Part shown: positions 8,701-25,932 of the stretch, piece after piece
How positions within the stretch are numbered: the stretch's first letter is position 1
Layout: each line of letters starts with the position of its first letter
Made by a program: the position numbers and the translations under genes
Virus record (IMG/VR): IMGVR_UViG_3300020183_000347
Location: 1-29,307 of that record
Length of the DNA: 29,307 nucleotides
Direction: 5' to 3' (one strand)
Source of the DNA: a virus
The notes under the pieces: model-generated
What the model was told of the DNA's origin: nothing
What the model saw: only the letters and a program-made list of their open reading frames with translations
Databases searched by the model: none

Positions 8701-8897
8701 CAGCTAATCCTTTAGTTCCTCCTCCAGCACCTGTGCTTAATATAGTGCCTAGACCAATAAAACAGCTAGACGGTTCTGTTGAGTATGATTTAGAAATATA
8801 TACGGCTACAGATACTACCGGATATCCAATTGCAATTAGCACTGAACTTCAGATTTCAAGACCTTCTGAGATAATAACTATACAAGGCATAACATAA
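5706..8897 (+). CDS. Tail hub / host-specificity protein gpJ-like, N-terminal half, with inserted Hint domain
   Basis: 1063 residues from ATG 5706 (an in-frame TTG at 5700 is less likely). After a short leader QGGKGG comes a Hint domain (residues 23-151, listed separately), then KGGRKS and the gpJ core. Core landmarks shared with lambda gpJ are EAPNSLFS...FGEGP, VPSNYNQ (429 on), GAWDGTF (568), NPVWVLYDLLTNQSYGLG, AQYCD, GCDRRSQALRFAQYLL and VERDTDEVVTITASEY. The hub caps the tail tube and carries fibres that contact the host. Between VPSNY and WDGTF there is a ~120-residue insertion absent from lambda, with a GSGYLSTPTITAS beta-domain signature. The ORF stops near where lambda gpJ enters its FN3 region; the next gene starts by TAATG overlap and seems to supply the rest. 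Confidence 0.85.
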   Translation: MYKSYYIINGKAVPLIQGGKGGCFAAGTLIDVPGGVKAIELVQVGDLVTSFNEHGLITQNRVTHIFEHEDDEILEVKYWNGSFDITPNHWVLNEYMAFTAIGNLKVDDVLVDRLGYFRPILAVNKKPNARVYNLTVENNHTYISNGIRVHNKGGRKSAAAPATEAPNSLFSTDLLFCTFAFGEGPLYRINPNGPQDIEFNESSIDDLVKLDGDGTLNTDLFFTTSSTGAVTGKGVPSATRFAGKTVTPQGFNSPVSLKKGNLTSIPAVTVIQNTSQNSWDALDFNFLISGLQKMDSQGNVFGFSVGIKITLFEHTGTTILKNKDGEEIIVEKTIEGRTNTNFKFNVNIIIPDNAKSSNGYKYKIEKTTDDSDSSKIADAISFVGWDEIKNSKQLYPRTALLGVALRSGAEYSGSIPTITSLIKGLIIKVPSNYNQPVLSTGEIDWRELETPTSGPNSYTTCGYNLETQGVGVSSVTLGDSNDSTGYTTGDSVTFSAPQILGGVTATGTVVATDGKITSVTITNSGSGYLSTPTITASTGILNNLTLTAVLAAKSLLTDINPIIYKGAWDGTFVYKWTQNPVWVLYDLLTNQSYGLGIPEDNIDKFKFFKVAQYCDAVDPKTGKFDGVSGFADGTFRHKPRGKFTSVRQNQIGLDLGTAIVERRFVCNISINTQKQVMDIINQVSALFRGILFYNGGKISINVDMPDEIPVAIYNETNILKESLIISGIKESELLTGVEVSYLEPRNHSRRELVRLDDPKAISDFNSIENVKSIDLPGCDRRSQALRFAQYLLASSKYIRRKAIFKTPAEGMTSTIGDIIAISQKIGGISWGYGGRVFANSSVASTNVILEHFTSPAITAADIQGNTLPIALRVINRETDRVELYICQNTFSSVSSSNVNAGIDIVELTVQKIYKPQTKSFANIGNFSANLVPVKGDIWSLGEVNPTNFYINTNDKLFKIINVERDTDEVVTITASEYISNVYVDSDSLISYVPVKYTDTANPLVPPPAPVLNIVPRPIKQLDGSVEYDLEIYTATDTTGYPIAISTELQISRPSEIITIQGIT
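5772..6158 (+). other. Hint (mini-intein / BIL-like) domain inside gpJ
   Basis: 129 residues, C23 to N151 of the hub protein. Block A starts with CFAAGTLI and continues to IELVQVGDLV. Block B has the TPNH (T-x-x-H) motif at 86-89. Block F is RVYNLTVENNHTYISNG and block G ends in VHN. No LAGLIDADG or HNH homing endonuclease fits in this length. The residue after HN is Lys, not Cys, Ser or Thr, so standard protein splicing would lack its +1 nucleophile. That pattern resembles A-type bacterial intein-like (BIL) domains, which can cleave at their ends. Flanks are GGKGG and KGGRKS, so the domain interrupts the Gly/Lys leader seen at the start of many gpJ proteins. Activity is inference. Confidence 0.85.
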
Positions 8898-11800
8898 TGG
8901 CATTCAAAACAATAAAAGTAGATAGCACAGCTAATATTACTAACGGTATGGGCGTAGCCATAGTAGGTAAAAATGGTTTTAATACTGTTTTAGGATCTAT
9001 ACCTGTTTTATGTAACGCTGTTTCTAAAACGGATGTTACTGGTGATAAGACTATTAAGGACGGTAATTTACAGCTTACTCTAGAGGGTTTTTCAGGACTA
9101 TTTGATCTTAACTTTTTTAAACATGTTTTAGAAGTTAATGACGATCCTGCGGTGTTTGGAGGATTAAAAGGTATTGATCACATAGGTATACCTATAAATG
9201 AAAAATCAGGTACAGGCGCTGAAATAGGACATGTAGGACATAATCCTATCATTACTCAAATCAGCGCCCCTGTTCAAAGTTTTGACTTAGCAACTAATAC
9301 ACTTAAAGTAAATAATAGTGTTAGTGCAAATAATCCTAACACATTTTTGCTTGATGCTCTACCGTCAACACCTTTCTATATAAAAATTAGTCAATTATTA
9401 GATCAAACAAATTTTGCTAATAACAGTGTATATGTAGAGGGATTAAGAGAAACTTTTACAAAAACTTTTAATACATCTGTTACAAATCAATTTGGTTTTA
9501 GTAATGTAAATATAAATATTACGCCTAGATATAAAACAGCTATTTCTGTTTACATAGACAATGAAGAACAACAACAAGCTATTTTTACTTGGGATTTTAA
9601 ATCTAATGTGAATGTTCAGGTTGCGACAGGCAAAGTTTTAACTATTAGAACAGATCACTATACAGTGCCTGTTATAGAACCTGGAGATAACATATCTCTG
9701 TTTTCTAGTAACGTCTACGCTATATCAGAAACTAGTTATAACCCTGGTAGCCCTAGTTATAACGCTGCATTAACAGCTAATAGTTTATACAGAGTTAAAT
9801 TTGCCTCTACTTTAACTGCTAACTTATCTGGAGATACAGGTGTAAACATTACTCCTGATACTCAAGGAACTGTGGGTAACCTTAATTCTAGCACAAAAAC
9901 TTTTACAGTAGATTATGATCAGACTATATTTCCCGGTGTATATGATCTAGCTAATTATAAAATATATGACATAAGTTTAAGTAGAGATTTTGAAAGTTTA
10001 GAACTCACTAAGGAAGGGAAAATAAAAAATATTCCTATAGGTAATTATGTAGTTAGAGCTAGAAATACTAACTCTTTTAATAGAAAAAGTCCTTTTTCTA
10101 CTAAACGTGTGCTTATTAAAAGCATACCTATAGGCAGAGTAGTAGATTTAAACATATCAGAAGAGCTATATAAAGATAAACAAGTAGGAGTGGCTGTTAG
10201 AGCTACTGTTTCTTTTACTCCCATTATAAATCAATCTGTAACAGAATACGAGGTATCTTATAAAATAGTTAATAATTCAACAAGTGTAGATCTACTTAGT
10301 TTTACAACTGTCAAAGTACCTGCCAGTGGTATAGCAGAAGATGGTAAAATACATTTTAAAATAGATAATATAGAAAGAGGTGGTGCGCCAGCAGCTCATA
10401 AACTACATGTAAGAGTAACTCCTTTAAACAACGATATAAGAGGAATAACTTCTGAAACAACTAAAGATATAGTAGGTAAAACAGCTAAACCATCTGGGGT
10501 TACTAGATTTGCGGTTAGTCAACTTGCAGATCAATTGTTATTTAGTTGGACAGTGCCCAGAGACGCAAACGGTGATCCACTTGAAATAGATCTCTATCAG
10601 TTTACTATCAAGCAACTTGCAGGTGCCTATTCATCCGTTAGTGAATCTGACTGGGATTCTTCTACAGAGATAGGATCAGCTTTTGCTAATGTCAGTTTTT
10701 TAAGTTCTCCGGTTAGAGAGTACGGTACATTTACTTATTTGATAAGAACTAAAGACACAACATCTAATCAATGTGAGCCCGATCAGATAGAGGCCTATAC
10801 TATAACCACTATAAGACCTCCTAATCTACAAACTTTTAGAGCCTTTAGTGAAGATGATCCTGGCGCTAATGACTATATCTCTGGAAGCACTAATAATAAC
10901 TTTTTTGAAGCACATTATCCAAGTTTTGCTAATTCAGCTCATGGAGGTATTGCAGGAGCAGGTAGAAACATAGTAGATAATTCTAATGGCACTTCTATAG
11001 GATTTAGTGTAGCCTCTGGAGCTACAGATTTAAAAGCCACAAGTAATGCTACTTATTTTACACAAATTAGAGATTTAGGAGAACTCGTAACAGCCAGATT
11101 AATATCTACTGTTAACTTAGTTCAGATTATTACTACTACTTATAATGACTTTAAAGAAAATTTACACGTAGGTGTGTCAGACGTATCTGCGTCACCAGGA
11201 ACTTTCAATGATACTGATATCGGATTAATTTTATCTTCTAATAGTGCTGTTTATGATTCCAATAATAAAACATTGACAAGTGGCGGATCTACTGGTAACG
11301 TATATGCAATATGGAATTATGGTCAGTATGCACCCTCGGCAGGAATACCTGCCGGTGATGTCTCAAATTCCAACAGCTATGCTTTAATAGCTGGAGTATT
11401 AGACGATGATCAGATAGTTTTAGGAAACACTTATTTTGCTAATGGAGCGCTTACCGGGTCGAACACTTTAGCTAATTTAACTAGTGGTATTTCTTATGCT
11501 TTGGTTAACTTAGGTCAGTTTAGCGATAAATCTACTGTTACATACTCAGGTCCTTCGGGGTCATTAAGTTTTAACGTAGACTTTAGATATTCTACTTCTA
11601 GTAATGTGTACTACTCAAGTAATAATCAAGTTAATACCAATGCTTTTGTAGGTTATGAAACAAATGAGGGATTTATACCTATAGCAGAGTCAGATATTTC
11701 ATTTAGACATTTTCAACTTAGATTAAGTGTAATTAATAGTAAACCGGATCAAGTATCTGCTATATTAGATAAATTTAGGTACGCTGTTAACCTAACTAGA

Positions 11801-12034
11801 AAAATTTTCTCGACTAGTAATACTGTTAATAGCAGTAATGTTAAAATAGATTACAGTTCTGCAGGGTTTTCAATTGATCCAAACATTTCTGTTACACAGG
11901 CTTCGGGCTTAACCCCGGTAGTAGCCATAGTAAATTCTAGAAATACAAATAACTGTCATATATCTCTATTCGACTCTGCAACAGGAGTTTCTGTTACAGG
12001 CGTAAAAATAGATATCATAGCAAACGGAGCTTAA
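8897..12034 (+). CDS. J-like tail protein with FN3-like modules, probable C-terminal half of the hub/fibre
   Basis: 1045 residues. The early part is beta-rich and not recognised in detail. PIGNYVVRARNTNSFNRKSPFS (around residues 375-395) resembles the FN3 strand 'LGNYRLTVRAVNAWG' of lambda gpJ. Residues ~530-635 (KPSGVTRFAV...LLFSWTVP...YTFTIKQL-like) look like a fibronectin type III module. The C-terminal 400 residues are Ser/Asn/Thr-rich beta structure, as expected for a surface-exposed receptor-contact region. It starts within the stop codon of the gpJ-like gene (TAATG), so the two halves of a lambda-type J appear to be made as separate coupled proteins. It could equally be an independent tail-tip fibre protein; the assignment is from order and weak similarity. 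Confidence 0.6.
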   Translation: MAFKTIKVDSTANITNGMGVAIVGKNGFNTVLGSIPVLCNAVSKTDVTGDKTIKDGNLQLTLEGFSGLFDLNFFKHVLEVNDDPAVFGGLKGIDHIGIPINEKSGTGAEIGHVGHNPIITQISAPVQSFDLATNTLKVNNSVSANNPNTFLLDALPSTPFYIKISQLLDQTNFANNSVYVEGLRETFTKTFNTSVTNQFGFSNVNINITPRYKTAISVYIDNEEQQQAIFTWDFKSNVNVQVATGKVLTIRTDHYTVPVIEPGDNISLFSSNVYAISETSYNPGSPSYNAALTANSLYRVKFASTLTANLSGDTGVNITPDTQGTVGNLNSSTKTFTVDYDQTIFPGVYDLANYKIYDISLSRDFESLELTKEGKIKNIPIGNYVVRARNTNSFNRKSPFSTKRVLIKSIPIGRVVDLNISEELYKDKQVGVAVRATVSFTPIINQSVTEYEVSYKIVNNSTSVDLLSFTTVKVPASGIAEDGKIHFKIDNIERGGAPAAHKLHVRVTPLNNDIRGITSETTKDIVGKTAKPSGVTRFAVSQLADQLLFSWTVPRDANGDPLEIDLYQFTIKQLAGAYSSVSESDWDSSTEIGSAFANVSFLSSPVREYGTFTYLIRTKDTTSNQCEPDQIEAYTITTIRPPNLQTFRAFSEDDPGANDYISGSTNNNFFEAHYPSFANSAHGGIAGAGRNIVDNSNGTSIGFSVASGATDLKATSNATYFTQIRDLGELVTARLISTVNLVQIITTTYNDFKENLHVGVSDVSASPGTFNDTDIGLILSSNSAVYDSNNKTLTSGGSTGNVYAIWNYGQYAPSAGIPAGDVSNSNSYALIAGVLDDDQIVLGNTYFANGALTGSNTLANLTSGISYALVNLGQFSDKSTVTYSGPSGSLSFNVDFRYSTSSNVYYSSNNQVNTNAFVGYETNEGFIPIAESDISFRHFQLRLSVINSKPDQVSAILDKFRYAVNLTRKIFSTSNTVNSSNVKIDYSSAGFSIDPNISVTQASGLTPVVAIVNSRNTNNCHISLFDSATGVSVTGVKIDIIANGA

Positions 12035-21010: not shown

Positions 21011-22837
21011 TTATTCTCCTATTTTAGATATATTGTTTCTTTTAGCTATATGAATTTTTTCTATGAGTGGATGCTCGAAATCGTGTGAGATAAAAAATGT
21101 ATTAGCATCTTCTTGCATTAGAATATCTACCAATCTTTCTTTACCTGCGGCATCTAAGACTCCAGTTATCTCGTCTAAAAATAAGATATTTATCTTACTG
21201 CCGCCAATTTTAGATAAAATATTTCTTATGGCGAGCAGGATAGAGGTTTGAATTCTACCAAATTCGCCACCGGACACTGTTTCTATGGGCGTCTCTTTAC
21301 CGTTATTAGCAACAACGATATTAAGTTTTTCGCCGTTGAGTCTGAAGATAATCTGGAACTGACCATCACTTAACTCAGCAAGATAGTGGTTAATAGTGGT
21401 CTCTAATTGTTTAGTAAGATTTTCTAGCTTAAAAGCAACAATACCTGAAGTAGAAAACGCTTTTTTAAGAATGTTCAAGTGATTAATCTTTAATTTAAGA
21501 TTTATTATATCTTTTTCTAGTAACTCTTGTCTAGCTAAAAAATCTCTACGTTGCTCTACTAGGGTTTCTACTCTAGTATTATGAATATGGACCTGTTCAT
21601 TATGACGAGTGGAGATTTCTATGGATTCTTGTAAATTTTTAAGTTTTTGTGTTATATCATCGTGTTCAGTTTTAATAGCGGTGTAGTCTGGATAGGTCGT
21701 GGGCATAGAGATGTCTACTAGTTGGGAGAGCTGTTCAAATCTTTCAATAGAACGTTGATTATTACTCCACTCTTGATACTGTTGTCTCTCTACCGACTCC
21801 GTGCTCTTATAACTAGCTATCTGTTCAGCCAGAACTGTTTGCTCTCTGGTTAGTTTACCTATGTCAAGATCTAGTTGATTTTTTAACTCTACGGCTTTAG
21901 AGTTATCTATGTGTTGTCCACAGGCGTGACAAGAACTACTAGTGTCAATGCTCATCTTGTTCTTATTAAGAGTAGAGAGTATTTGAGCATTGATGGAGCT
22001 TTGAGTTACAGCTTGCTTAATCATATCAGCGAGTCCTACTGTTTGACTAGGTCTACCCATACCCATATCAAACTTTAAACTATCTCGCTCACGAATAAGC
22101 ATAAGATTTTTATCTATTTTAAGACATTGCTTATTAAAGTCGTCTAGTTGTACTTTTAGATGTGCTCTGCGAGTCTCTGCCTGGTGATCGTATGGAGGAA
22201 TGTCTTTTAGTGTTTTCTTAGGCTGAATCACCGTGCTATCTAAAAACCGCTTAACTCCTGATAGATCTCCTTGTAGAGCAGCATGATCCTGTTCAACATC
22301 AGTTAGTTTAATTTTTAAGATATCGCCAATCTCTAAATATCTCTCTAGACCAAATAGTGTAATCAAGAACCGCTTGCGATTAGTGTCTGTAGCCTTGATA
22401 AAATCTAAGAGATCTGTGCTGCTCTGATAGGTAAGTTGAGAAAATACCTCAAAACTCATCCCAAGAATCTGTTGAAGTTTCTTATAGGTATCAGGAATCT
22501 TGTGTTCAGAGATATCTTTTCCGTTTTTTAAGAGTTTGATCTTACTTGCATCTCCTATACGATCCACAGTAAGGTCATAGAGGTCACGGTCTACAATAAA
22601 ACTAAGGTGACCTGTCCAACCTTTAGACCCTGTATATCGGTTGAGAATATCACCTTTCTTGATGCCTTTTACGTTTTTACTATAGAGCAGTTCTTGAAGA
22701 ATCAAAGATATACTAGTCTTGCCATTGCCGTTTACTCCCGAGAGTTGAGAGATCTTGTTTTTCTCTAGGTTTAAAGTGTTGTCGCGCCCATAACTAAACA
22801 TATTAGACCATGAGAGACTTCTTAGTTGAATATTCAT
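21011..22837 (-). CDS. Rad50/SbcC-like recombination nuclease subunit (T4 gp46-like)
   Basis: 608 residues from ATG 22837, which overlaps the previous stop as ATGA; an in-frame ATG at 22858 would add seven residues. Walker A is GVNGNGKTS near residue 34. A CHAC zinc-hook motif (C303, C306) sits in the middle of a long coiled coil. ETVSGGEFGR is the ABC signature and ILFLDEITGVLD the Walker B and D-loop. With the next upstream gene it forms the ATP-driven nuclease that resects DNA ends for recombination-dependent replication. The coiled coil is short, as in phage gp46 (560 aa). Directly followed by RNR. Confidence 0.93.
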   Translation of the reverse strand: MNIQLRSLSWSNMFSYGRDNTLNLEKNKISQLSGVNGNGKTSISLILQELLYSKNVKGIKKGDILNRYTGSKGWTGHLSFIVDRDLYDLTVDRIGDASKIKLLKNGKDISEHKIPDTYKKLQQILGMSFEVFSQLTYQSSTDLLDFIKATDTNRKRFLITLFGLERYLEIGDILKIKLTDVEQDHAALQGDLSGVKRFLDSTVIQPKKTLKDIPPYDHQAETRRAHLKVQLDDFNKQCLKIDKNLMLIRERDSLKFDMGMGRPSQTVGLADMIKQAVTQSSINAQILSTLNKNKMSIDTSSSCHACGQHIDNSKAVELKNQLDLDIGKLTREQTVLAEQIASYKSTESVERQQYQEWSNNQRSIERFEQLSQLVDISMPTTYPDYTAIKTEHDDITQKLKNLQESIEISTRHNEQVHIHNTRVETLVEQRRDFLARQELLEKDIINLKLKINHLNILKKAFSTSGIVAFKLENLTKQLETTINHYLAELSDGQFQIIFRLNGEKLNIVVANNGKETPIETVSGGEFGRIQTSILLAIRNILSKIGGSKINILFLDEITGVLDAAGKERLVDILMQEDANTFFISHDFEHPLIEKIHIAKRNNISKIGE

Positions 22838-23793
22838 GTGATTCCTAGTCCTTTCCAAGTCTGAGAGATACCTTCAACATCTTCTACTCTTTGATGACGA
22901 AGATATATCTCTATCTCTTCTACTAATGAGAGTCCTGAGAGATCTAAGGCGCTAGCCTCATCTGCGCGATGAGCAATTTTTTTATCTAGCAGCACAGATC
23001 CCTCTACTCGTGCCAGCTCGTCTACGCTACCTACTACTTCATAGATTACGTGATTGCGAATCTCTTCTACCATCTCTTCACCTGTCTTAATTCTACGTCT
23101 AACTAGTCTAGGTAAATCAAGAGGAACAAACGTTACCTTGTAGTTGTCTAGCGTGCCCTCTACTAGGTTAACACCATATTCACGACTTTCATCGCGATCA
23201 AAACTTACTCCCATAGGGCTCCCTGGATAGTAGAGAGGATAGTCTCGATAACGATGATTATGGTGTAAGTCTCCGCAGAGAACTAGCTTCCAAGGACGCA
23301 GACGTTCAAAATCATACTCAGCAGTGATATGCGGAGGCACCTCTCCTCTGATGTGTGTAACAAGGATGTGACCCGGTATAGGACGGGGCAGGTTATCTTT
23401 TTGCATCTCTCCATAAGGAAAAAACTGCAGATCGACTCCCTCTAAACTTCTGCAAGCGTTGTAACAGATAATCTCTACTAGAGGGTTGTTAATCTTGTAG
23501 TCTCCAGTAAAGTGTTTTAAGAACGACTCACCTCTAGAAGTAGCCTCATGATTACCAGGAATAATGAAGGTCGGAATCTGTACTCTATGGATATAGGATA
23601 GAAAAAGAGCTACTTCATCAGGTTCTGGTTTCTTATCAAATACATCTCCCGCAATAACGTGAACTGTGCAATTTTTTTCTAACTCTAAGAGACGGTCGAA
23701 AAACTCTTGAAACCTACGATTTTGCCACTCCCAGGGTACTTTTTTCTTATGTAAAAGTATATGCCAATCTGCACTGTGTAAGATTTTAAACAT
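22834..23793 (-). CDS. Mre11/SbcD-like nuclease subunit (T4 gp47-like)
   Basis: 319 residues, close to T4 gp47. The calcineurin-type phosphoesterase motifs run SADWH (D9, H11), AGDVFD (D50), GNHE (N81, H82), VTHIRGE and CGDLHHNH, which bind two Mn ions and give 3'-5' exo- and endonuclease activity. It pairs with the gp46-like protein encoded next. ATG 23793 is preceded by AAAGGA at the end of the folded 163-base gap, so its translation could be tuned by that structure. The stop overlaps the partner gene's start (ATGA). Confidence 0.92.
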   Translation of the reverse strand: MFKILHSADWHILLHKKKVPWEWQNRRFQEFFDRLLELEKNCTVHVIAGDVFDKKPEPDEVALFLSYIHRVQIPTFIIPGNHEATSRGESFLKHFTGDYKINNPLVEIICYNACRSLEGVDLQFFPYGEMQKDNLPRPIPGHILVTHIRGEVPPHITAEYDFERLRPWKLVLCGDLHHNHRYRDYPLYYPGSPMGVSFDRDESREYGVNLVEGTLDNYKVTFVPLDLPRLVRRRIKTGEEMVEEIRNHVIYEVVGSVDELARVEGSVLLDKKIAHRADEASALDLSGLSLVEEIEIYLRHQRVEDVEGISQTWKGLGIT

Positions 23794-23941
23794 GGTAATC
23801 CTTTAAACTATATGCTATTATAAGTACGTATTCGTAGTTGCACATATGTGAAAGGCGATTTACTATATGGCACATACGCTTACTGCCTGCAATGGAATTG
23901 CTCCACGCAGGCAGATGCAACAACGTGTCTCGTAGAGACAT
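23786..23941 (-). CDS. Possible 51-aa ORF across the same gap
   Basis: An ATG at 23941 opens 51 codons and stops at 23786-23788, overlapping the gp47 start by eight bases. The product begins MSLRDTLLHLPAWSNSI and ends YSLKDYHV, with no recognised motif. There is no ribosome-binding site in front of the ATG. Because the gap is short, an open frame of this size could occur by chance, and the strong RNA folding of the same bases is a competing explanation. Confidence 0.25.
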   Translation of the reverse strand: MSLRDTLLHLPAWSNSIAGSKRMCHIVNRLSHMCNYEYVLIIAYSLKDYHV

Positions 23942-23956
23942 AACGTGAACGTGGGC
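23794..23956 (-). ncRNA. Structured leader or noncoding RNA candidate upstream of gp47
   Basis: This is the largest gap in an otherwise overlapping operon. Read on the minus strand it can fold as a three-way junction. The outer stem pairs 23916-23921 with 23837-23842 (GUUGCA/UGCAAC). Arm 1 pairs 23914-23907 with 23890-23883 (CUGCCUGC/GCAGGCAG), extended by GUGGA/UCCAU. Arm 2 pairs GUAUGUG with CACAUAU. A separate hairpin UGUCUC-UAC-GAGACA lies at 23940-23926, and CACGTT occurs three times at 23922-23953. The structure ends before the AAAGGA site of gp47. No B12 box or other riboswitch signature is visible. Pairing was found by eye and no energy was computed. Confidence 0.4.
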
Positions 23957-24820
23957 TTATTGTCCCTCGCGTTTACCGAATAAACGGCTCACATCTCCAG
24001 GAAAAGTGAAAGCCCCAACATGACTTAGTCTAGTATTTGGATCTAGCCATATCTTTCCACCAATTTTTTGCCACCTGCGACAAAAAGTATAATCTTCTGA
24101 TAGATATCTATTGTCATCTGGATCTATCCAAGTATCGAACAGAGCATAACAGTGAGGATTAAATTTAGGATCTATCGAGCTATCATTTTTATAATGTAAT
24201 TCTGGATAGGCTTGAATCATCTTTTCAAATACTACTCTCTGTACAAGAAAAAATCCTGTAGATGCGTCCATCACTTCTATAGCACCGTTTTCTACGTTTA
24301 ATTCTTTAGTTCTTGGATCTTTGAATTTAAGATTAATTGCATACTGAGCACTGTACTTTGAAATATCATCTTTTCCTTCTATTGCGGCTTTTTTAACACC
24401 ATCCCAATCAATTGTTTTTTTAGGATAAGCTGAAGCAATTAGAGGCTTGTTCATAGCCAGCATTCTGAGCACAGACTCTGGTTCAAACTCAATATCTGCA
24501 TCGATGAACATTAGGTGAGTGCAATCACTCTCTAAAAACATTGCGGTTAAGATATTTCTTGCTCTAGTCACTAGACTTTCATTTCTAAGAGTGGTAATTC
24601 TATAATTAATCTTATAATGATTCAGTGTTTGTGTAAGTCTAAACATAGACAGAAAAAATTGATCAGTTAGCATTCCGCCATAACAAGGTGTTGCAAAAAA
24701 TATGTTATATTTTTTTAACTCTTCAACACTTATATTTATTTGACCTGGCTTACTAGGTTCCGGTGATGAGTTTGGATTTGGGGCAGGGACCATTTCAGCT
24801 AGTTTTGAAACTTTTCCCAT
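23957..24820 (-). CDS. GT-A-type glycosyltransferase-like protein
   Basis: 287 residues. After a low-complexity Pro/Ser/Asn N-terminus, the core starts at NIFFATPCYGG. HLMFIDADIEF contains the D-x-D motif that binds the sugar-nucleotide and metal. STGFFLVQR and YLSEDYTFCRRWQKIGG are further marks of this phage glycosyltransferase group, with SEDYTFC at the acceptor-side acid. It may glucosylate modified DNA or alter host or virion glycans; the sequence does not say which. Start overlaps the SSB stop as TAATG. Its position in the replication operon leans slightly towards DNA modification, though no hydroxymethylase is in view. Confidence 0.75.
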   Translation of the reverse strand: MGKVSKLAEMVPAPNPNSSPEPSKPGQINISVEELKKYNIFFATPCYGGMLTDQFFLSMFRLTQTLNHYKINYRITTLRNESLVTRARNILTAMFLESDCTHLMFIDADIEFEPESVLRMLAMNKPLIASAYPKKTIDWDGVKKAAIEGKDDISKYSAQYAINLKFKDPRTKELNVENGAIEVMDASTGFFLVQRVVFEKMIQAYPELHYKNDSSIDPKFNPHCYALFDTWIDPDDNRYLSEDYTFCRRWQKIGGKIWLDPNTRLSHVGAFTFPGDVSRLFGKREGQ

Positions 24821-25464
24821 TATTTAAGATCCTCTACTTCTTCTGGCGATAGAGAGGAATCAGTTAAAGTACTAAATAACATTGTATTATCTAGTAACCA
24901 CTTCTTTTGCTCTTCGTATGTTGGACGCTTATACATCTTTGAAACTTCATATAGTTCAAGAGCACGCTCTTCAGCACTTAGCGCCTTACTGGTTCTAGCA
25001 GGAACGCAAGTATACTTAACGTTCTGAGGAAGAGGTCCAGTCTTTTCCTTCTTAATAGTGATATCGTAACCCTTTTCTAAATCAGCAGGGTTACCGTATT
25101 CTGGATTACGAGCATAATCTACAATTTGTTTGTAAACAGTTGCTTTAACATCAAATAATTTAATTTTACCATCTGTTCTATCTAGAACGTTGCACACATA
25201 TGCAAATTGTGGTTTTTCCGAATAAACTTCAGCAGGAAGTTCTTTCATCGGATCTCTCGCATTACTGTCAAAAGACTCTGTTTGACGATTAAATTGCAGA
25301 CACTCTACAGGCATTTTCTTGCCTTCTTTAGTAATCACCCAGTAGACGTAACGAGGAAGAACCTCTCCTACAAATCTAACTTTTGTATCGCCAGCTAGTG
25401 TTAGTCTTTCTATTACTTTTTTATCTGTTTTTGTGTTTGTTTTAGCCTGATCCCATGCTACCAT
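24820..25464 (-). CDS. Single-stranded DNA-binding protein, gp32-like
   Basis: 214 residues with AGGAG eight bases before ATG 25464. The OB-fold region has RFVGEVLPRYVYWV, PVECLQFNR, FAYVCNVLDR-x-DGK, NPEYGNPAD-x-x-x-GYDI and KTGPLPQNVKYTC, a pattern I associate with gp32-like SSBs of marine phages. The C-terminal tail is acidic (SSLSPEEVEDLK), as usual in SSBs that recruit partners. The Zn-binding cysteine cluster of T4 gp32 is not evident. Coats ssDNA for the polymerase, helicase and nucleases encoded around it. Confidence 0.7.
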   Translation of the reverse strand: MVAWDQAKTNTKTDKKVIERLTLAGDTKVRFVGEVLPRYVYWVITKEGKKMPVECLQFNRQTESFDSNARDPMKELPAEVYSEKPQFAYVCNVLDRTDGKIKLFDVKATVYKQIVDYARNPEYGNPADLEKGYDITIKKEKTGPLPQNVKYTCVPARTSKALSAEERALELYEVSKMYKRPTYEEQKKWLLDNTMLFSTLTDSSLSPEEVEDLK

Positions 25465-25467
25465 TTG

Positions 25468-25932
25468 TTATCTCCTTTTGATTATGTTAGTTGAAATATA
25501 TGTAAGTTCTGGTTTGAACCATAGTTTTTTGTCTTTATTGTTTAGATAAGGATTATCCCAATACTTATTATCAATATAATAATTAGGAATATATAGATTT
25601 TTGTTGTTTATGGATCGTTGACTCAGTGCATAGATATATACCATTTTATTATATACAGATTGTTTATCTGTTAACCAGTCGCTATTAATAAAGTAGCACT
25701 GTGGCTCTTTAGTTACGTATTTATTTAGTAAACCAAAAGCACTCTTAACTATAAAACCTTTTCTATATATAACTTGTGGTACGTAATCAATATTAAGTCT
25801 AGAGAGTAGTGAACTCTCTGAAGAACTTATAACTGAATTATATCCTTTACTTAGAGCATATGTCAAAGTGATTATACCTTCAAATAGATTATCACTCCCC
25901 GATTTTAACTCGTACCAGTTAAATAGATTCAA
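25468..25932 (-). CDS. Hypothetical protein, unknown
   Basis: 154 residues from TTG 25932, the only start codon before Met97; it overlaps the helicase end by 14 bases, so it is likely translated by coupling. The product is rich in Tyr, Asn, Ser and Lys (NNKNLYIPNYYIDNKYW), soluble-looking, with a basic C-terminus. No domain is recognised. The stop sits within the ribosome-binding region of the SSB gene. It may be an accessory of the replication machinery, but nothing in the sequence shows this. Confidence 0.6.
   Translation of the reverse strand: MNLFNWYELKSGSDNLFEGIITLTYALSKGYNSVISSSESSLLSRLNIDYVPQVIYRKGFIVKSAFGLLNKYVTKEPQCYFINSDWLTDKQSVYNKMVYIYALSQRSINNKNLYIPNYYIDNKYWDNPYLNNKDKKLWFKPELTYISTNIIKRR

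Follow-up and report, generated by a model that had tools for sequence, protein, structure and literature searches.

The RNAs CsrB and RsmZ titrate a protein by means of multiple hairpins, and CsrA needs GGA in the loops of hairpins of this type. To our knowledge, replication origins in the T5-like phages have been only loosely defined. In phage T4, the R-loop origins oriF and oriG include an A+T-rich unwinding element (PMC3016281). A G-N-A or G-N-N-A loop closed by a C-G pair is given as the rule for hyperstable DNA mini-hairpins, which that source describes as designed or isolated DNA pieces (PMC4686876). The promoters read by the N4 virion RNA polymerase are described as hairpins of 5-7 bp with a 3-nt loop and a partly free stem (PMC4496689).

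The locus compared here with these systems lies in a stretch of 29,307 nucleotides (the window) from an uncultured T5-like phage. The plus-strand genes of the window form a lambda-J-like tail module. A 1045-aa late protein without a PHROG match is encoded at 8897-12034. A cluster of early replication and nucleotide genes occupies the minus strand; it comprises a polymerase, helicase, SSB, glycosyltransferase-like gene, gp47, gp46, class II RNR, thioredoxin, RusA-like, flap nuclease, dUTPase and thyX. This cluster follows the order of the T5 D genes; the string of polymerase, D10 helicase, D11/SSB, D12, D13, flap nuclease and dUTPase is shared with T5 and Vibrio phage Thalassa, and among relatives of the window T5-like D5, D6, primase, D11 and D14 occur as well. 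As the earlier note pointed out, the 163-base gap in front of gp47 is exceptional, the remaining minus-strand neighbours overlapping or lying within about 35 nt of each other. The features of the gap and its surroundings are as follows:

22834..23793, minus strand: gp47/SbcD gene (T5 D12-like), neighbour downstream of the gap on the minus strand
23786..23941, minus strand: 51-codon ORF, frame not conserved
23793..23798, plus strand: -35 position, TGGTAA (3 of 6 bases), 17 nt from the -10 and overlapping the gp47 start codon
23794-23956: gap of 163 nt between gp47 and the glycosyltransferase-like gene
23811..23821, plus strand: extended -10, TATGC-TATTAT, a conserved motif; predicted transcript start at about 23828
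23828..23956, plus strand: predicted noncoding transcript region, deduced from promoter and hairpins
23837..23921, plus strand: three-way junction segment in the DNA fold, aligned in close relatives
23845-23850 / 23871-23876, plus strand: stem TATGTG/CACATA inside the three-way junction segment
23883..23914, plus strand: hairpin CTGCCTGC ... GCAGGCAG inside the junction, in both RNA and DNA folds, relatives aligned
23926..23940, plus strand: mini-hairpin TGTCTC-GTA-GAGACA with a C-GNA-G loop, same class in relatives
23957..24820, minus strand: glycosyltransferase-like gene (phrog_1574), neighbour upstream of the gap on the minus strand

The gap belongs to an element that recurs in most gp47-bearing relatives and the constant parts of which are one to five (usually two) hairpins of 5-7 bp and a tail. 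On the early-gene strand the hairpin loop is T-N-C closed by C-G, which corresponds to G-N-A on the other strand. Small perfect hairpins with 3-nt loops were seen by eye directly upstream of gp47 in 19 of the 28 loci with a gp47 relative that were collected as the starting set; in L013, L014 and L016 the element lies farther upstream, and within the stretches examined it was not found in L006, L009-L012 and L023. A DNA pattern of the window hairpin returned 31 stretches, some of them chance matches inside genes, and a pattern for the downstream motif at least 120; of 80 pattern matches read, 28 lacked the hairpin and were discarded as chance. In 12 whole or nearly whole contigs, the C-TNC-G class gave 13 clusters of at least two hairpins within 60 nt, the other G-C-closed loop classes none and the A-T-closed classes at most six; the window, having one C-TNC-G hairpin, yields no cluster in that count.

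The 117-kb contig G018 carries a single element, at 54.3 kb. There is one further element in G005 and there are two in G017, all keeping their orientation in the genome within gene blocks on the opposite strand; the G017 copy at 39.2 kb sits within a gene, a G018 gene related to it carries one hairpin of this kind, and this copy may be something other than the element. The second copies at L030:7215-7460 (G005) and L074:6265-6445 (G017) are far from gp47 and near lysis-like and accessory genes. In the G005 element at L033:7867-8099 (G005 67867-68099), an expanded form, five C-TCC-G hairpins alternate with larger hairpins, CGTGGGAG/CTCCCACG; this repeat array is not found in the window and is shorter or decayed in L004, L007 and L028. 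In relatives such as L014, L044, L053, L082 and L104, the site beside the element is a hot spot of insertion, methyltransferase, radical-SAM and other accessory genes being gained and lost between the element and gp47, in the interval that begins at the glycosyltransferase-like gene.

Every relative found to have the element is an IMG/VR contig. A search of bacterial genomes gave one MAG contig with a close gp47 and no element just upstream, and blastn of window positions 22500-25500 or of the consensus matched nothing among named phages; therefore, no cultured carrier is known. The early D regions of T5 and Thalassa share their gene order with the window, and no copy of the element turned up in the parts of them examined: T5 35-85 kb and 12.9 kb of Thalassa contain no C-TNC-G or C-GNA-G hairpin, five such hairpins are scattered over T5 85-121.75 kb, and the sole match of the covariance model in these stretches had an E-value of 4.6. 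No description of the element was found in a literature search of open-licence papers.

Conservation of the hairpins was measured in 66 distinct elements picked by the third hairpin and the tail, blind to the two main hairpins, and both of these were present in 64 of them. Among the 640 inner pairs of the 64 elements, 637 were Watson-Crick, none was G.T and one was A.C, at a variety of nine distinct stems for the first hairpin and eight for the second; shuffled controls reached at most 272 and 269 pairs per 320. The single A.C pair would read as U-G in a plus-strand RNA, and otherwise no G-U occurs in the 640 pairs on either reading. Pairing is thus kept while stems vary, and these compensatory changes among relatives, which the earlier note had proposed as a check, establish a real structured element.

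The loops of the same 128 hairpins were TAC in 60, TCC in 60 and TTC in 8 on the early-gene strand, that is, GTA, GGA and GAA in the same numbers on the plus strand, so that the first two hairpins have T, G or A at the loop centre; the third has C or T there, its loops TGC or TAC having been fixed by the choice of pattern. In L127 and L160, the two exceptions among the 66, which were counted as misses, the second hairpin is present by eye, its 4-nt loop reading GTTA on the other strand, and the third hairpin of L017 has a loop of GGCA on that strand; the third loop of L020 violates the rule. As read from these sequences, the rule on the window plus strand is a G-N-A or G-N-N-A loop closed by C-G. 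On the early-gene strand of L018 and L024, a T-run comes after the third hairpin, which there resembles an intrinsic terminator.

Between hairpins and tail, three direct TTCANNNGCT-like repeats are spaced 11 and 20-22 nt in 66 elements; the first two are partly set by the search pattern, and the third is independent of it. Only members whose two hairpins were both perfect entered the alignment set (44 of 118 once near-copies had been removed, the window being admitted with one), and 40 of these 44 were aligned, so the 40-member figures lean towards structure, a bias from which the 66-element count is free. RNAalifold gave no common fold beyond three hairpins, and in one alignment it missed the first hairpin because gaps misplace the hairpin arms; that hairpin was therefore counted by loop anchoring. 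The GC content of the element is 0.46-0.49, against 0.33-0.35 for the contigs.

The three TTCANNNGCT repeats, which are helically phased, occur in most relatives; the subgroup to which the window belongs has neither them nor the third hairpin, and carries the three-way-junction segment in their place. The covariance model built from the 40 members found L074 at an E-value of 5e-6 and did not find the window subgroup, so the window is counted as a member by its position, its class of hairpin and its extended -10. We are highly confident of the family anatomy, conserved hairpins plus an opposing sigma-70 promoter, and consider it probable that the window is a full member.

Within the window itself, the fold of the gap is only marginally better than chance expectation: as minus-strand RNA it reaches -45.1 kcal/mol (z -1.95, with 7 of 200 shuffles equally good), and on the plus strand the z value is -2.25 as RNA and -3.43 as DNA. 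The three-way junction of the earlier note is possible and appears in the plus-strand DNA fold, but is missing from the RNA minimum of both strands. Its closing stem pairs GTTGCA (23837-23842) with TGCAAC (23916-23921), further stems lying inside; the CTGCCTGC/GCAGGCAG hairpin occupies the slot of the second C-GNA-G hairpin in relatives with a closer array, and the mini-hairpin at 23926..23940 reads TGTCTC-TAC-GAGACA on the minus strand. The three copies of CACGTT on the minus strand are indeed there, at 23948-23953, 23942-23947 and 23922-23927, as is the 51-aa ORF at 23786-23941 (minus strand). The suggestion that the latter is a small gene failed: its frame is broken in all four close relatives read, with stops at 20, 26, 26 and 42 codons in L001, L002, L005 and L007 and a differing sequence, and the longest closed ATG frame inside the 66 elements has a median of 9 codons sense and 10 antisense. 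The small ORF was consequently dropped as an explanation, there being no frame conservation among relatives.

The TATAAT reported on the minus strand is present at 23816-23821 but is not conserved in relatives, in which the conserved feature at this site is an extended -10 promoter read on the plus strand. The tail motif used in the search, TARCAYA, shows conservation in the alignment of 40 members when read on the early-gene strand, and its reverse complement, TRTGYTA, forms the extended -10; read on the window plus strand, the tail is a predicted promoter of sigma-70 type, TTG-17-(TRTGY)TAnnnT. TTG stands exactly 17 nt upstream of the -10 in 58 of 69 tails, which are related sequences and not independent samples, and never at spacers of 14-16 or 18-20. 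In a cleaner set, the -35 TTG was found in 69 of 73 elements, the four without it being the window (TGGTAA), L090, L192 and the second motif in L114. The -35 overlaps an ATG in 38 of 69 cases, and the context of this ATG may contribute to keeping the TTG constant; among elements free of such an overlap, TTG is still present in 31 of 32, with TTGACG and TTGCCG among the hexamers. The window has a good -10 and a weak -35. This predicted promoter is directed from the gp47 start through the hairpins, against the early genes, and the idea that the tail is the promoter of gp47 was ruled out, the conserved promoter pointing away from that gene.

An automated promoter scan of the window did not list the plus-strand promoter, and no intrinsic terminator was found within window positions 23600-24300. 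Candidate terminators on the promoter strand accompany 4 of 81 elements and are convincing in L074 only, where promoter, hairpins and terminator form a closed unit of about 130 nt (hand count). Genome-wide, the same promoter was found before other genes at 6 sites, against 2-6 in control orientations, which is no clear enrichment.

We tentatively rank first the reading of the gap as a noncoding RNA gene on the plus strand, lying inside the early minus-strand cluster and against it, since the element is untied to gp47, frameless, without an Rfam relative and raised in GC. The processed or noncoding RNA proposed in the earlier note is accordingly plausible, on the strand opposite to the one named there. 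Host RNA polymerase would start at about 23828 and make a noncoding RNA of roughly 110-150 nt, the repeated mini-hairpins of which may bind one host or phage protein; the RNA would then titrate or position that protein, as multi-hairpin sponge RNAs do. A putative promoter of its own stands ahead of the structured region in 69 of 73 elements (the -35 being weak in the window), the structure shows compensatory change and no reading frame is conserved. The number of hairpins varies among elements, reaching five in G005, which also supports an RNA gene. A GC content above that of the genome is common for structured RNA genes in A+T-rich genomes.

Like CsrB and RsmZ, the element would give a short noncoding transcript with several hairpins of one type in varying number. 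Unlike them, it has GNA loops in which the middle base is free, GGA being found in 60 of 128 and lacking in many, and Rfam yielded no match: at the gathering cut-off, no family was found in the window or in eight loci, and a weak additional search of the window likewise matched no known RNA family, cobalamin riboswitch included, which bears out the earlier statement that no B12 box is visible. The RNA reading is weakened by the absence of G-U pairs, unusual for RNA, and by a loop rule that is the published one for DNA mini-hairpins (PMC4686876). It is further weakened by the lack of an RNAalifold common fold past three hairpins, a convincing terminator in L074 only, a weak -35 in the window, a promoter absent from the scan and not enriched before other genes, and a window subgroup that escaped the covariance model.

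It is owing to the missing G-U pairs and the DNA-type loop rule that a transcription-primed replication origin with DNA mini-hairpins is kept close behind the RNA gene, as a possible reading, if an unlikely one. Under such a model, the RNA from the plus-strand promoter would stay paired with its template as an R-loop across the element, while the displaced plus strand would fold into hyperstable c(GNA)g DNA mini-hairpins and so stay open; these hairpins may mark the displaced strand for loading of a helicase or primase, and the phased TTCANNNGCT repeats may bind an initiator. The loop rule is that of d(GNA) and d(GNNA) hairpins, with a C-G closing pair (PMC4686876), and here includes all four middle bases and GNNA variants; the inner stems of the phage hairpins, which are putatively hyperstable, are not all G-C. 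No G.T pair among 640, three repeats at constrained spacing in 66 elements, and a promoter aimed at no gene all suit an origin, as do the single element near the middle of G018, in the replication gene cluster, and the extra copies that hold the genome orientation despite surrounding genes running opposite. The latter copies in G005 and L074 can, however, also be read as leaders of genes co-directional with the promoter.

The T4 origins are the nearest precedent for this reading: there too a promoter drives RNA across a short noncoding element of the early region (PMC3016281), and the putative promoter found here would drive a transcript across the site. Unlike oriF and oriG (PMC3016281), the element lacks an A+T-rich unwinding element, its GC content exceeding that of the genome, and it holds conserved mini-hairpins, the T4 origins not being known to have a hairpin array. 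No skew change is seen at the element, where skew is uninformative as to a replication start, and the origin-binding-protein-like T5.108 was not found in the six relatives searched. It is doubtful, though conceivable, that these loci represent a new class of phage origin in which a sigma-70 promoter sends a primer RNA through three initiator repeats and c(GNA)g hairpins lock the displaced strand; just as tentative is the corollary that such origins would have been conserved in structure while stem sequences drift, across a large uncultured T5-like clade.

A cis-acting leader of the minus-strand early operon, in which hairpins of the mRNA would control gp47, gp46 and RNR, as the earlier note suggested, is improbable. 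The early transcript necessarily includes the hairpins, and 42 of 83 elements occupy the gap ahead of gp47, most of these with the tail at a fixed distance of 25 nt from the start. In 32 of the 83, however, the next gene is another one, on the same strand in 29 and on the opposite strand in 3 (the remaining 9 abut a contig edge), and for these varying neighbours a gp47 leader was dropped as the general role. Moreover, the promoter points away, the minus strand having no conserved -10 or -35 whereas the plus strand keeps both, and U-N-C loops would lack a known rationale in RNA.

A hairpin promoter of the N4 type, serving a virion RNA polymerase, was the first idea considered and is very improbable. 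It is favoured by the short stem, 3-nt loop and variable stem sequence (PMC4496689), and was abandoned because no polymerase appeared in the records searched and the loop centre is free, whereas the N4 polymerase recognises A or G at -11 (PMC4496689). The element also has several hairpins, with a sigma-70 promoter instead, 70-110 nt away. A T7-type polymerase (PF00940) was found in none of seven records, a weak result in incomplete contigs with a silent control, and the 2133-aa late protein of G013 reads by eye as a tail protein. This tail-J-like protein (G013 59426-65824, minus strand; L036/L037) has by eye an intein- or Hint-like start. Chance structure in an ordinary gap, for which the marginal fold of the window alone would speak, is scarcely credible, since dozens of relatives show covariation, one exclusive class of loop and a fixed spacing within the promoter.

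An element found clade-wide, with a precise structural rule, a promoter opposing the operon and no known family, would be either a new regulatory RNA or a replication start, and the RNA-gene and origin readings make differing, simply testable predictions. If the DNA reading is true, these phages would show that a loop rule familiar chiefly from DNA chemistry is used, under selection, in nature.
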